In this document: positions 12,770 to 20,938 of the stretch, in pieces | Numbering within the stretch: the first letter of the stretch is position 1 | Layout of the letters: the number at the start of each line of letters is the position of its first letter | Source: Ignavibacteria bacterium | Lineage (GTDB): Bacteria; Bacteroidota; Ignavibacteria; Kapaibacteriales; UBA4661 | Assembly (NCBI GenBank): GCA_014654705.1 | Contig: JACVZY010000059.1 | Span: 186,001-250,000, forward strand | Direction: 5' to 3' | Length of the DNA: 64,000 nucleotides | Notes under the pieces: generated by a model | Seen by the model: only the letters and a program-made list of their open reading frames with translations | Database searches by the model: none | Told to the model about the DNA's origin: nothing | Position numbers and translations under genes: made by a program

Positions 12770-14686
12770 ATGGCAACAGTACTCGATTCCAAAGTTCCTA
12801 GTGGACCGCTTGGTGAGAAATGGGAAAAACATAAGTTTGAAAGCAAACTCGTGAACCCCGCGAACCGCCGTAAATTCTCGGTGATTGTCGTTGGTACAGG
12901 CTTGGCAGGAGCTTCAGCTGCTGCTTCGCTGGGCGACATGGGCTATAAGGTCAAAGCATTTTGCTTTCAAGACAGCCCGCGCCGGGCGCATAGTATCGCG
13001 GCTCAAGGTGGCATCAATGCTGCCAAAAACTACCGCAACGACGGCGACAGCACCTATCGCCTTTTCTACGATACCATCAAGGGTGGCGATTATCGCGCCC
13101 GCGAAGCAAATGTCCATCGTTTAGCCGAAGTCAGCACCAACATCATTGACCAATGCGTTGCGCAGGGCGTTCCCTTTGCCCGCGAATATGGTGGCTTGCT
13201 GGACAACCGCTCCTTCGGCGGAGCGCAGGTGTCGCGTACATTCTATGCGCGTGGGCAAACCGGACAGCAGCTTCTCTTGGGCGCGTACTCGGCACTTTCA
13301 CGCCAGATTCATCTGAAAAATGTGGAAATGCACACTCGTACAGAAATGCTGGATGTGGTTGTTATCGGTGGTCGCGCTCGTGGCATCATCACGCGCAATC
13401 TCGTTACGGGAGCAGTCGAGCGCCACGTTGCTGATGCCGTGCTGCTTTGCACGGGCGGCTATGGCAACGTCTTTTTCCTTTCCACGAATGCCCAAGGCTG
13501 TAATGTTACCGCCACATGGCGAGCGCACCGCAGAGGCGCGTTCTTTGCGAATCCATGCTACACGCAAATTCACCCGACGTGTATTCCTGTGCATGGCGAA
13601 GACCAATCCAAACTGACGCTGATGAGCGAAAGTCTCCGCAATGACGGGCGTGTATGGGTTCCGAAGGCAAAAGGCGATAAGCGCCGTGCCGAGGACATTC
13701 CTGAAGCAGAACGCGATTACTTCTTGGAGCGCAAATATCCGGCGTTTGGCAATCTTGTGCCGCGTGATATTGCTTCGCGTAATGCAAAAGAAGTGTGCGA
13801 CGAAGGTCGTGGCGTGGGCGACGGGCAAGCGGTTTATCTTGATTTTGCTGCATCCATTCAGCGTGTCGGCGAGGATGTCATCCGCGACCGTTACGGCAAT
13901 TTGTTCGATATGTATGCTAAAATTACCGCCGAAAATCCATACAAAACGCCGATGCAAATTTATCCCGCCGTGCATTACACCATGGGTGGTTTGTGGGTGG
14001 ATTACAATTTGCAAAGTACCATTCCGGGCTTGTTTGTGCTGGGCGAAGCGAATTTCTCCGACCACGGTGCGAACCGCTTGGGCGCGTCAGCACTCATGCA
14101 GGGCTTGGCGGATGGTTATTTTGTCATTCCCTACACGCTTGGCAATTACTTGGGCGGCACAAAACTTGACCCCGTGGACGCAAATGCTCCCGAATTTGGC
14201 GCAACAGAAAATGAAGTGAACGAGCGCGTGAACAAACTTCTGAGCATCAAAGGCAATAAAACGCCACTTGCTTTCCACAAAGAATTAGGCAAAATTATGT
14301 GGAATGAGTGCGGTATGGCGCGAAACAAAGCTGGCTTGGAATCAGCACTGAAGCGTATTCCCGAACTCCGCGAAGAGTTTTGGAATAACGTCAAAGTATC
14401 GGGCGAAGCAGGTGAATTTAACCAACAGCTTGAGCGTGCCGGTCGCGTGGCGGATTTCCTTGAGTTTGGCGAACTCTTTGCTAAAGATGCTCTCATCCGC
14501 GAAGAAAGCTGCGGCGGGCACTTCCGCGAAGAACATCAAACCGAAGAAGGCGAAGCAAAACGCGACGACGATAACTTCGCACACGTCGCCGCCTATGAGT
14601 GGACCGGTAGTAACGGCGCGCAAACACGCCACGTGGAGCAACTTGTTTTTGAAAACGTTAAATTGACGCAAAGGAGCTACAAATAA
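12770..14686 (+). CDS. sdhA: Succinate dehydrogenase/fumarate reductase flavoprotein subunit
   Basis: A 638-residue catalytic subunit that interconverts succinate and fumarate at the inner face of the membrane and carries FAD. It shows the dinucleotide-binding segment ([20 protein letters not shown]), the FAD-linked histidine region ([17 protein letters not shown]), the substrate region with [20 protein letters not shown], and [20 protein letters not shown]. The length (about 640) is that of the Bacteroidota/epsilonproteobacterial type that works with a di-haem anchor. The frame is open from a TTG at 12764, but the ATG at 12770 is preferred. The start codon of sdhB overlaps the stop by one base. 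No anchor subunit gene lies upstream or downstream here. Confidence 0.96.
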
Positions 14687-15498
14687 TGGCTACAATGACA
14701 ACAACAAATGGACACGCCGCGAACGGACACGCCGCAAATGGTCATTCCAAGGGCAAAATGCTCAACTTGACGCTTCAAGTCTGGCGACAAAAAAATGCCA
14801 CTGCCAAAGGGCGCATGGAAGAGTACAAGTTGAAGGGTGTTTCGACGGAAATGTCGTTCTTGGAAATGCTTGATATGCTCAACGAGCAACTCATCAAAGA
14901 AGGCAAAGACCCCGTTGCCTTCGACCACGACTGCCGCGAGGGAATTTGCGGTATGTGCGGTGCGATGGTGAACGGCTATGCGCATGGTCCCGATGAAGCC
15001 ACAACGCTTTGCCAGACCCATATGCGCTCGTTCTCGGACGGCGAGACTATCACCATTGAGCCATGGCGGGCAAAAGCATTTCCGGTCATCAAAGACCTCG
15101 CTGTTGACCGCACATCGTTCGAGCGCATTATTCAAGCGGGCGGCTATGTCTCGATCGGTACGGGCGGCGCACCGGACGGCAATTCCATCCCGATTCCGAA
15201 AGAAGCTGCCGACAAAGCAATGGACGCAGCGCAGTGTATTGGCTGCGGTGCGTGCGTGGCGGCTTGCCCGAATGCGTCGGCAATGCTCTTCACGAGTGCA
15301 AAAATCTCGCACCTTGCGCACTTGCCGCAAGGGCAGGTAGAACGCCGCGAGCGGGCTGCTAACATGATTCGCGCTATGGACGAACTTGGTTTCGGAAATT
15401 GCACCAACCACGGCGAATGCGAAGCTGTTTGCCCGAAAGAAATCAAAATGGAAAACATTGCACTGATGAACCGCGAGTATTTTGGGGCGTTGGTGTAA
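14686..15498 (+). CDS. sdhB: Succinate dehydrogenase/fumarate reductase iron-sulfur subunit
   Basis: A 270-residue subunit that passes electrons from the flavin to the quinone site. Three cluster-binding regions are visible: [10 protein letters not shown] for [2Fe-2S], [13 protein letters not shown] for [4Fe-4S] and [15 protein letters not shown] for the last cluster. The N-terminus has a repetitive [17 protein letters not shown] stretch before the conserved fold begins. The start overlaps the sdhA stop (TAATG), with AAGGAG about 10 bases upstream, so translation is probably coupled. A terminator follows directly, so the transcript ends without an sdhC gene. Confidence 0.96.
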
Positions 15499-15533
15499 AT
15501 TTTCTTAGAAGAGAACAAAACAAGTAGAACAAA

Positions 15534-15588
15534 ACAAGCGGCTGCACGAAATTCTAACCATAAGATTTCGCGTAGCCGCTTTGTTTTT
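15534..15588 (+). terminator. Rho-independent terminator after sdhB
   Basis: Arms ACAAGCGGCT (from 15534) and AGCCGCTTTGT (to about 15584), extended inward by GAAAT/ATTTC pairing, are followed by a T-rich run. It lies 35 bases after the sdhB stop. Confidence 0.85.
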
Positions 15589-15627
15589 ATTGGGATTGCA
15601 ACACTACAATCATCATCAGTGTACTCT

Positions 15628-15742
15628 TAGGACTTTCGCAAAAGCACTACTATTGATCACACAGACAAGAGTGTCTGTGCCACCGAAACCAGTTCTCATG
15701 CCGTAGCACAGACACTCTTGTCTGTGTTCTGCGAAACTCCTA
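15628..15742. mobile_element. MITE-like non-coding element with terminal inverted repeats
   Basis: A 115-bp element. The ends are TAGGACTTTCGCA (15628-15640) and TGCGAAACTCCTA (15730-15742), inverted repeats matching in 12 of 13 positions. Inside, a perfect 22-bp inverted repeat (15659-15680 and 15706-15727) has arms that can each fold (CAGACA...TGTCTG). The 5-bp string ACTCT flanks both ends (15623-15627 and 15743-15747), like a target-site duplication; alternatively the bounding TA could be the duplicated target. No coding sequence is present, so it would need a transposase elsewhere in the genome. It lies between the sdhB terminator and the LRR gene. Confidence 0.65.
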
Positions 15743-15864
15743 ACTCTTTAATGTCGTAGAAAATATCCGATACTTTCGTATCATTGCTTTTTTTGTACAA
15801 CAACGACGAAAAGCAAATCTCCATGTTTTGTCAATCTTCTCAAAGAAGTGGTATGATAGCAGAT

Positions 15865-17325
15865 ATGAAACTCCTATGCAGCGTTGTGCGCACCAGTCTA
15901 GCGTGCGCACGTCTATGGTGTCTTGTGCCGTTGGTATGGATGGTGGTAGTCGTGGCAGCACTTCCCGCCCGCGCACAGACGACGACCTACACTGTGCCGG
16001 AAGCAGCAGAGGCAAACAAACTCTACACAAGCACCAACGGTGCAAACTGGCGAGATAAACAAGGTTGGCCCTTGCAAATGAGCTACACAACAACGGCAAG
16101 CATCGAACCAGCAGCAGCAGGGGTGATTTTTTTCGGTTCGCGGATTCAACTACTGATAAAAGAACTAGACTTGTCTCGCAATAACCTGAACGGGACTATC
16201 TCTAATTTCAATCTGCCAAATTTGCAACGGCTGGATTTGTCTTACAATGAACTGAGCGGTGCAATTCCCAGCTTCGATTTACCAAACCTGAAAGTGCTAT
16301 CCTTGGGTGACAATCTCCTAGGCGGAACCATCCCTAATTTTAATCTGCCAAACCTGCAATATCTGAGTTTGTCTAGTAATTTCCTGAGTGGTGTTATTCC
16401 CAATTTCAATCTACCAAACCTACAATATCTGAGCTTGACTAACAATTCCCTGAGAGGTACTATCCCCAATTTCAATCTGCCAAACCTGCAAAGACTATCC
16501 ATGGGCTACAATAATCTGGGCGGAGCTTTGCCTAATTTTAGTCTGCCAAACCTGCAATATCTGAGCTTGTCTAGTAATTCCCTGAGTGGAATTATCCCTA
16601 ATTTCAATCTACCAAACCTGGAATGGCTGGATCTGTACAACGATCAATTATCCGGTTGCGATGTGGACTGGGCGAAAGTTCCAAAACTTGCTTATCTCTT
16701 TTTAGCAAGAAATAAACTTGTTTTCCGCGACCTTGAGCCTGCCGCAAAAGCAATGCAAGGAAGAGCGGGAGCTGTCTTCTCCTACAATCCCCAAGACAGC
16801 GTGGCAACCCTCAAAAGCGGCGACACTGTGCGTGTGGATGTGGGCGGAGAACAGACGCGATATCAATGGTTCAGAAATGGCGAGGCAATCATCAATGCAA
16901 CGCAAGCATCATACACAACGACCGACACAGCGCTCTACTCTTGCCGTTCAACGAACACACTTTTGCCTAGCCTGACCCTTTACAGTCGCCCTGTCAGAGG
17001 CGGTGCAGTCATTACTTCAGTGACGGAAATAAAACATTCTCAGGACAACCAACAGACGAAAGAAATCATAACAGCCCTGAACATTCGCCCGAATCCGTTC
17101 TGGGAGTACAGCAGCATCAGTTATAGCCTGACAAGCAGACTCCCGGTGAGTATTGCGGTATATTCGCTCTTGGGGCAAAAACTCTTGACGGTATTCGATG
17201 GCGAACAAAACGCCGGAACGCACGTGCAGGATTTAGCGATGAGTGCATTCAGTATCGGCGTGTATATTGTGCGAGTGCAAGCCGGAGATGGCGTACAGAG
17301 TGCGTTTGTGCATTATGTGCGATAA
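15865..17325 (+). CDS. Secreted leucine-rich repeat protein with T9SS tail
   Basis: About 486 residues from the ATG at 15865 (MKLLCSVV...), which begins a signal segment ending near PARAQ; the frame also has ATGs at 15784, 15823 and 15853. After a short domain (TYTVPEAAEANKLYTSTNGA) come eight leucine-rich repeats (DNA about 16162-16683) with a 22-residue period: LPNLQYLSLSSNFLSGVIPN is typical. The G-x-IP ending resembles plant-type LRRs. Then comes a possible Ig-like segment (TRYQWFRNGEAIINATQASY) and a T9SS sorting domain (LNIRPNPFWEYSSISYSL to VHYVR). LRRs usually bind proteins; here a surface adhesion or recognition role is a reasonable inference. Confidence 0.85.
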   Translation: MKLLCSVVRTSLACARLWCLVPLVWMVVVVAALPARAQTTTYTVPEAAEANKLYTSTNGANWRDKQGWPLQMSYTTTASIEPAAAGVIFFGSRIQLLIKELDLSRNNLNGTISNFNLPNLQRLDLSYNELSGAIPSFDLPNLKVLSLGDNLLGGTIPNFNLPNLQYLSLSSNFLSGVIPNFNLPNLQYLSLTNNSLRGTIPNFNLPNLQRLSMGYNNLGGALPNFSLPNLQYLSLSSNSLSGIIPNFNLPNLEWLDLYNDQLSGCDVDWAKVPKLAYLFLARNKLVFRDLEPAAKAMQGRAGAVFSYNPQDSVATLKSGDTVRVDVGGEQTRYQWFRNGEAIINATQASYTTTDTALYSCRSTNTLLPSLTLYSRPVRGGAVITSVTEIKHSQDNQQTKEIITALNIRPNPFWEYSSISYSLTSRLPVSIAVYSLLGQKLLTVFDGEQNAGTHVQDLAMSAFSIGVYIVRVQAGDGVQSAFVHYVR

Positions 17326-20400: not shown

Positions 20401-20804
20401 CCCTCAGCGGCAAGCGCTTTACCAAGCAAGCGCCGCGCGGCATGGTGATCGGTACAGAGCCGGAAGAACGCTGGGATAAAAAATCCGCTATCGTCATGGG
20501 CGAAGGAAATTATTCCGATGCGCATTGCTTCCCTTGTGCATACAAAGCCCTCGGCATTGGCGAGACGATTGGTATGCCTGTGGCGGGCACGTGTACTGCC
20601 GTGTGGTGGGAAACGCTTATGGACGGCGTGACGATATTCGGTATTCCCGAAGTCGGTATTATCAGTACGCTCGACCCAACGCGGTACTTGGAAAACCGCC
20701 AATTAGAGCCTGACCACTTGATAATGAATGACCCCGTTAGCTCCGCCAAAGGGCAAGATTTGCAAATCGAAAAAGCAGTGGAAGTGCTGTTGAAACAAAA
20801 ATAA
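17487..20804 (+). CDS. Tricorn-like S41 serine protease
   Basis: About 1105 residues. A signal segment (SSALLLLMVLFGGLIASIAS) is followed by repeated WD40/TolB-like beta-propeller blades (AISPDGKTIAFSYKGDLY, PVWSPDSKTIAFASDRHGNF and more), a highly charged linker (about residues 590-615, nearly all Lys and Asp/Glu), a second propeller, a core domain, a PDZ domain (KPGVIIEKIDGETITPAQDF) and an S41 catalytic region with the nucleophile Ser in EGNYSDAHCFPCA. This order is that of bacterial tricorn-type proteases, which cut peptides. The signal predicts the periplasm or outside, unlike the cytosolic archaeal form. Confidence 0.9.
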   Translation: MLLWTRSRARSSALLLLMVLFGGLIASIASPPMSAQTPLWMRYPAISPDGKTIAFSYKGDLYAVPASGGAARQLTQHEAYDAMPVWSPDSKTIAFASDRHGNFDVFLLPAEGGVAKRLTVFSRSETPTGFTPDGKNVVYVANRQDKPTNSQFPSGVLTELYSVSVNGGQPKQILTTPAQDAHWDKSGTRLLYHDRKGYEDELRKHQTSSVARDVWMYDAKAGTHTKLTSSVAEDRSPVWSPDETEVYYLSEQSGSFNVWKFPVANPAQTTQVTTHSKHPVRALSIAADGTLCYAFDGEIYVKSPAEKESRKVAVSVVGDAKENDVKYQQLTTGASEFAVSPNGKEIAVVLRGEIFVSSVDYGITKRITNTPEQERSVSFSPDGRTLLYAAERGSSWNVYQTTIVKSKDDEPYFYKSTLLKEEPLVATPAEEFQPKYSPDGKEVAYLEERTVLKVINLQSKQTRQILDSTKNYSYADGDQYFAWSPDSKYFLVQFLDKGRWRGEVGLIDAQGKGPVKNLTQSGYDDGGAEWIMDGKAMLWQTDRYGFKGHGSWAAESDVYAMFFTQDAFDRFRLTKEEYEATKAKDGKKDDKKDEKKDDKSGDKKDEKKEDKPTVKPVVIEPDGLEDRTARLTVHSSRLADAVMSPDGERLYYLARFEQGFDLWATRPRDKETKLLAKLNAQQGAVKLVQSNDGKSLFVLANGMIMKVDTGSGATKPVAFRAEMNLNANAERAYFFDHAWRQTLKKFYDPQMHKVDWAFYRKEYAKFLPHVANGYDFADLLGEMLGELNASHTGGRYRPRPNPERDDETASLGALYDDTFAGDGIKIAEVLEKSPLAKASSDVKPGVIIEKIDGETITPAQDFAALLNRKVDKPTVLALFDPASKKRWEETVKPTSLQMENAMLYDRWVKSRRELVDKLSKGRVGYVHVQGMNDPSYRVAYSDLFGRHNDKDAIIIDTRFNGGGNLTEILTTTLSGKRFTKQAPRGMVIGTEPEERWDKKSAIVMGEGNYSDAHCFPCAYKALGIGETIGMPVAGTCTAVWWETLMDGVTIFGIPEVGIISTLDPTRYLENRQLEPDHLIMNDPVSSAKGQDLQIEKAVEVLLKQK

Positions 20805-20850: not shown

Positions 20851-20938
20851 GTAGCACGGACATTCTTGTCTGTGAGGCTTGAAGCGGTTTTCAAGGACTA
20901 CACAGGCAGGTGAGCACGGCGCTCAGTCTGTGCCATCA
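20851..20938. repeat. Degenerate relative of the MITE-like element
   Basis: GTAGCACGGACATTCTTGTC and the next four bases (20851-20874) match 22 of 24 bases of the right inner arm of the element at 15628-15742. Further right, CACAG...GAGC acggc GCTC...CTGTG forms a hairpin (about 20900-20933), and CTGTGCCA resembles the left arm. No clear terminal repeats remain, so this looks like a decayed or related intergenic repeat. Confidence 0.5.

Follow-up and report, generated by a model that had tools for sequence, protein, structure and literature searches.

The 115-nt element at 15628–15742 of the 64-kb window (the whole stretch of DNA that was analyzed, part of contig C59 in a 5.72-Mb genome of 118 contigs, G000) is very probably a composite, in which an IS701-type MITE frame carries a RAYT-type REPIN and both are moved as one unit by an IS701-type enzyme acting in trans. 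We proposed that an IS701-type DDE transposase, acting in trans, would recognize the TAGGACTTTCGCA ends and would insert the unit with a 5-bp target duplication. In the subfamily to which the element belongs, the interior would be a REPIN, i.e., two GTRG-tagged REP hairpins in inverted orientation with their tags facing inward, and this two-layer composite would transpose as one unit. Action by RAYT or by a host factor that binds REPs may explain why the REP hairpins persist. The proposal rests on what the sequences show, namely, ends in common with an insertion sequence, duplications of 5 bp, the presence of copies in four species, empty sites for two of them, the identity of the REPs, and paired changes in the REP stems. 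The mobility of the frame is well supported, and we infer that the IS701-type enzyme is responsible for it.

The structure of the element was read directly from the sequence. The left terminal inverted repeat (TIR), TAGGACTTTCGCA, at 15628–15640 on the plus strand, matches exactly the first 13 nt at the ends of the IS701-type insertion sequence (IS) in the same genome, and it is complementary at 12 of 13 positions to the right TIR, TGCGAAACTCCTA, at 15730–15742 on the minus strand. The target-site duplication ACTCT flanks the element at 15623–15627 and 15743–15747. A long spacer (15641–15658, plus strand) leads from the left TIR to the first REP. Motif search located REP 1, with a GTGG tag, at 15660–15683 on the minus strand and REP 2, with a GTAG tag, at 15703–15726 on the plus strand; each contains a CACAGACA-CTCT-TGTCTGTG hairpin with the tag facing inward, and the REPIN loop at 15684–15702 lies between both tags. 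These REPs overlap the arms of a perfect 22-nt inverted repeat, at 15659–15680 and 15706–15727, which extended to 25 nt at 96% in an inverted-repeat search. The 13-bp ends with 12 matches, the perfect inner repeat, and the ACTCT flanks were thus all found as the original prediction had described them. It had also described the element as devoid of coding capacity, and no ORF of at least 80 aa was present inside 15628–15742. Its assignment of the element to the MITEs, as non-autonomous, agrees with the ends, copies, and duplications described here, but it did not recognize the inner repeat as a RAYT-type REPIN, which is also present outside this frame.

Inverted ends matching at 12 or more of 13 positions and bounding elements of 80–150 bp formed eight pairs in the window, and equal 5-bp flanks were found only at 15628–15742. 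Twenty dinucleotide shuffles of the window gave 0–10 such end pairs each, none of them with equal flanks. Chance pairing of the ends was ruled out by this window-wide scan and by the family copies. The element lies between an upstream gene at 14686–15498, which we take from its motifs to encode an iron-sulfur subunit of the fumarate reductase or succinate dehydrogenase type, and a downstream ORF at 15784–17325, which is presumably leucine-rich-repeat-like, also by motifs. A known structured RNA was rejected because no Rfam family reached its gathering score anywhere in the window. The element was likewise rejected as the site of a promoter or terminator; both promoter-like matches lie outside it, and 15450–15900 contained no terminator-like site. 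Elsewhere in the window, one more REP (GTAGCACGGACATTCTTGTCTGTG), isolated and with a single mismatch, is located at 20851–20874, just downstream of an ORF ending at 20804.

Each inner arm of the element is a REP with a GTRG tag, an 8-bp stem (CACAGACA/TGTCTGTG), and a 4-nt loop, and the two REPs are inverted with their tags facing inward, as in a REPIN. The REP motif, searched with free loop length (2–10), had 66 exact sites in the genome, and the reversed pattern had none. Over 32 composites, the first tag read CYAC in all 32 and the second GTRG in 29. Across the composite family, the REPs keep asymmetric distances from the ends, 30–32 nt on one side and 16–18 nt on the other in 29 of 30 rows; the exception is L193 (40 and 18). 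These 30 rows are those that the script oriented correctly, and L165, L166, and L191, which have mutated stems, were turned by hand for alignment. Covariation was assessed in an alignment of 32 of the 33 composites, L176 being omitted for its internal duplication. The local REP stems were 97.9% paired, compared with 94.6% in shuffles, and their covariation was 0.141 against 0.078 ± 0.008, a value that none of 500 shuffles reached. For the TIR pairing, covariation did not exceed that of shuffles. Three pairs in the REP stems, comprising 25 cells, were changed on both sides; these cell counts overstate the number of events because the sequences are related, and our guess is that the independent paired-change events number about three.

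Several of these results weigh against the composite reading. The number of REP pairs changed on both sides was not clearly above that of shuffles (3 versus 1.7; 41 of 500 reached it), and REP stem pair types did not exceed shuffles among the 32 composites. Related copies inflate the covariation counts, and repair within palindromes could produce paired changes without selection and thereby mimic it. The inner repeat might instead be the long hairpin of the MITE itself, with the other REPs being decayed MITE pieces and no RAYT involved, which we consider improbable. When folded as single-stranded DNA, the element gave a z of −7.76 that none of 200 shuffles equaled, and the whole 115-nt strand formed a single long hairpin with the TIRs as its closing stem, as this alternative would have it. 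One pair of the long hairpin, located within the REP loops, was also changed on both sides (12 cells), which favors the alternative and counts against the composite reading. However, the long hairpin was 92.5% paired compared with 91.8% in shuffles, its covariation was 0.132 against 0.119 (16 of 500 shuffles reached it), and sliding it by +3 gave an equal covariation score. Both the paired changes and the excess of pairing over shuffles are thus greater in the REP stems than in the long hairpin, and the REP stems are favored on these grounds. The kept tags, the two REPs that flank a RAYT domain, and the REPs of the same sequence that occur in frames with unrelated ends or without a clear frame also argue against the long-hairpin alternative.

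The element belongs to a family of short copies with TAGGACTTTCGCA ends. We read 39 copies with paired ends in four species, including 8 in its own genome, 5 in G001, 8 in G005, and 18 in G006; further copies, whose existence the original prediction had left to a search, are therefore present both in the host and in its relatives. The units with a REPIN form a subfamily, common to the four species, within this IS701-type MITE family. All of the 39 copies but one were 108–125 bp long, the exception having 150 bp. The 5-bp duplication was perfect in 19 copies and matched at four of five positions in 7, and agreement was at three positions or fewer in 13, these copies without duplication being a point against the composite reading. 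When left and right flanks were mispaired as a control, perfect agreement occurred in 6 of 1482 combinations. The own genome was searched by the end motif, so that sites with zero and one mismatch are complete and those with two mismatches are from among the matches listed. Copies in the other genomes are those among the matches listed to composites; the set is accordingly not exhaustive, and, because they were found through similarity to composites, the non-host copies are biased toward REPIN-bearing ones. Up to four mismatches per end were allowed in pairing, and pairs with up to four in total were kept. An end pair was obtained from 27 of the 34 short loci examined, those without one being L177–L180 and L200 (which run to the contig end), L188, and L189. 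L066, with one end, and L155, with an end pair, stand outside the 39 copies. At L155 (1399–1512; G001:C50), the TAGGACTTTCGCA pair lies beside a partial RAYT-like match, which overlaps it at the right end. The 150-bp composite in G006 (L176, 114–263) has an internal tandem duplication of part of its second REP and keeps a perfect 5-bp duplication.

Two of the eight own-genome copies, the window element and a copy on C8 that has no duplication, carry this type of REPIN. Three others (L061, L063, and L064) enclose a different palindrome, GGAG-TGCGGAA...TTCCGCA, and the remaining three have other interiors; the different palindrome has nine exact sites in the genome, five of which are outside TAGGACTTTCGCA-ended elements. 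It is very improbable that the element moves as a REPIN by RAYT and that its TAGGACTTTCGCA ends are a chance occurrence or a passive flank. The tagged REPIN and the RAYT domain in the genome would fit such movement; however, the 5-bp duplications abut the TAGGACTTTCGCA ends, the join at the empty site falls exactly there, and MITEs with the same ends and another interior (L061, L062, and L063) have perfect duplications. In addition, target duplications are not known for RAYT-type HUH enzymes.

Two copies in the sister species G001 match the whole window element at 89%, and empty sites in the own genome were found for two sibling copies in that species. The copy on C199 of G001 is absent from C106 of the own genome, where its flanks adjoin; these match at 93 and 90% identity, and no gap was needed to align the joined 120-nt flanks to C106. 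The copy on C343 of G001 corresponds to a site on C51 of the own genome without the element, the left flank matching at 88% and the diverged right flank at 68%. The two empty sites suggest that units of the subfamily were inserted after the species split; precise loss is possible and less likely. The gene upstream of the window element was matched in six of seven relatives of the same genus (G001, G002, and G004–G007), and G003 gave no match. No element was present in about 250–400 nt downstream of that gene in these six relatives, the contigs of G002 and G006 ending there, and the right flank had no good match in any of the six. As the right flank has no counterpart, the window copy is without a strict empty allele, which counts against the composite reading; that is, the empty site that the original prediction had hoped for exists for sibling copies and not for the copy at 15628–15742.

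The TAGGACTTTCGCA ends were then compared with those of resident insertion sequences. The exact 13-mer occurred at 20 sites in the genome. When as many as two mismatches were allowed, it was no commoner than a reversed control (158 versus 187), which is a further point against the composite reading. Eleven of the 20 exact sites are the outer ends of one insertion sequence with two end types, namely, five left ends in which TAGGACTTTCGCA is followed by AAAGCCGGAAAAG and six right ends in which it is followed by AAGTCAAGTAAAAG. In all 11 cases the sequence continues to a contig end, which lies within 55 nt in ten of them and 211 nt away in one; such breaks would be expected if the assembler failed to resolve a repeat. 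In the own genome, the left end leads into a frame starting with MKVTRAMYCQYLLSSQ (MKVTR, just inside the left end), of which a 36-aa transposase start near the edge of C90 is present. Neither a complete transposase ORF nor a whole autonomous copy of the insertion sequence was assembled in the own genome, which also weighs against the composite reading. Adjoining the IS701-type left end, at G000:C90:1–62, is a second repeat, which recurs at no fewer than 34 further contig ends; it is probably another multi-copy insertion sequence inserted there.

A 334-aa relative of the transposase is encoded in G002, of the same genus, downstream of the same TIR. The two are separated by another ORF, which probably belongs to another insertion sequence. 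This transposase scored 364.7 bits with NF049921 (the NCBIfam IS701 family; cut-off 250) and also matched Pfam DDE_5 and DDE_Tnp_1. The transposase gene with matching ends that the original prediction had looked for was thus found in part, as a short start in the own genome and nearly whole in G002. Close matches occurred only in these two genomes, the one in the own genome being a fragment. In the other three composite-bearing species, the search gave no transposase in G005, matches of at most 32% identity in G001, and fragments and a 47% relative with TAGGACTTACGAA as its nearby end in G006. Ends of the AGGACTTACGCAA type are present in three distant IS701-type elements, taken from named records; the printed flanks of two of them show 5-bp duplications (AGTAA in Pyrinomonadaceae and ACATA in Nostoc), and those of the Coleofasciculus element show none. 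Like the IS701 family, the insertion sequence described here has a transposase above the curated cut-off, and its ends are common to the MITE. IS701 elements make 4-bp target duplications. Since the duplications in the present family are 5 bp, which speaks against the composite reading, we refer to it as IS701-type by transposase and not as classical IS701.

The only Y1-type (RAYT) domain detected in the own genome is located at C10:40048–40437 and is flanked by REPs of the same family at C10 39982–40005 and 40472–40495. It scored above the cut-off for Pfam Y1_Tnp and just below the cut-off of 80 for the NCBIfam RAYT model (79.3 in one search and 74.8 in another). An open RecG helicase frame contains the domain and its REPs as an in-frame insert that separates the DEQH motif from the SATP motif. 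At this locus (L077 1–2979; G000:C10:38500–41478), the bounding REPs are translated, as VAQTFLSV and QTRMSV. G006 has the same RAYT-in-RecG arrangement in a 1060-aa frame (L195 1983–5162, minus strand). The G007 contig (L196 3–1556) begins within the insert, and only the part of RecG after the insert is visible. The own genome, G006, and G007 all retain the HUH motif (DHVHI or DHVHL). A search of open-licence PubMed Central for RecG together with a REP-associated tyrosine transposase gave only PMC6006769, in the available part of which RecG appears in a reference title. The RecG-embedded RAYT may serve the REPs of the element; however, the REPs beside RAYT have their tags facing outward and those of the composite inward, which is a point against the composite reading.

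REPINs are commonly regarded as clients of a single RAYT, and the question of how they spread and are maintained is open. With REPINs in DDE-transposon frames, and with sister species that do not have the same insertions, it becomes possible to test what each mobility system contributes. MITEPsy1 is a MITE ascribed to the parental ISPsy2 (PMC3189936). As far as the available part of that source describes MITEPsy1-type MITEs, the element resembles them in being about 100 bp long and geneless, with the TIRs of a resident insertion sequence, a short duplication, and several copies; it differs from MITEPsy1 in that its parent is IS701-type, its duplications are 5 bp, and its interior is the REPIN of a second system. 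With the REPINs and GTAG-tagged REPs with RAYTs in the available parts of PMC3116915 and PMC3733652, it shares the GTRG tag, the stem-loop, the inverted pairs, and the tens of copies, as well as a RAYT domain flanked by the same REPs. In contrast to those REPINs, it lies within an inverted-repeat frame of the IS type, which gives rise to target duplications. Ignavibacteria, the probable group of the host, are not among the phyla with GTAG repeats named in the available part of PMC3733652. The same part describes degenerate GTAG-1 units in Pseudomonas putida and P. fluorescens, which are joined to unrelated stem-loops and flank RAYT genes. Similarly, the element joins REPs to unrelated inverted repeats in many copies, whereas its frame is that of a DDE transposon, and no IS ends or duplications are named for GTAG-1 units in that part of the source (PMC3733652). 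Among the papers listed from open-licence PubMed Central, no description of a REPIN inside an IS701-type MITE was found, as judged by titles and abstract openings.

Cores like that of the window element also occur in other frames. In the own genome and G001, such cores lie between TAAGCAT(C/T)TGGAC...ACCTTA ends. This second frame, with the ends TAAGCATCTGGAC... and ...TTCAATACCTTA, was observed at L041–L047 and L051 in G000 and at L112, L216–L219, and L222 in G001; it has no clear target duplication, possibly TA. A third frame, with AGTAGTCCGTCAAA-like ends (AGTAGTC(C/T)GTCAAA-like) and similar cores, was observed at L116 and L226 in G005 and L233 in G006, L226 being degenerate. The ends of both frames are unrelated to the TAGGACTTTCGCA ends, and other REPs of the same sequence are without a clear frame. 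The window core differed at 2 of 67 positions from the nearest second-frame cores of G001 (up to 97% alike) and at 5 of 67 from the nearest of its same-frame relatives (93 and 88% alike), with frame labels in this comparison assigned by hand and that of L224 by its left side only.

The REPIN could have been captured by an ancestral IS701-type MITE and could now be neutral cargo, with hairpins conserved by recent copying and palindrome repair; this is a real but lesser possibility, and it is compatible with the frame part of the composite reading. A single ancestral composite is suggested by the conserved asymmetric spacing, the 17 cores compared from G006 have a mean similarity of 97%, and the covariation rests on few events, as would be expected of cargo. 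However, the REP stems show paired changes between subfamilies, and the tags are kept in nearly all copies. The window core is also nearer to G001 cores in another frame than to its same-frame relatives, a similarity that hints at the exchange of REPIN cores between frames. Returning to the composite reading, we consider it rather unlikely that it extends to a dual system, in which the IS701-type DDE transposase would move the frame, the RecG-inserted RAYT would process or spread the REPIN core, and cores would be exchanged among the TAGGACTTTCGCA, TAAGCATCTGGAC, and AGTAGTCCGTCAAA frames. If this were true, one REPIN lineage would ride several transposases at once. Finally, REP pairs in the opposite order, with tags facing outward as beside RAYT and lengths of about 70–120 bp, were observed in G000 at L052, L053, L055, and L057.
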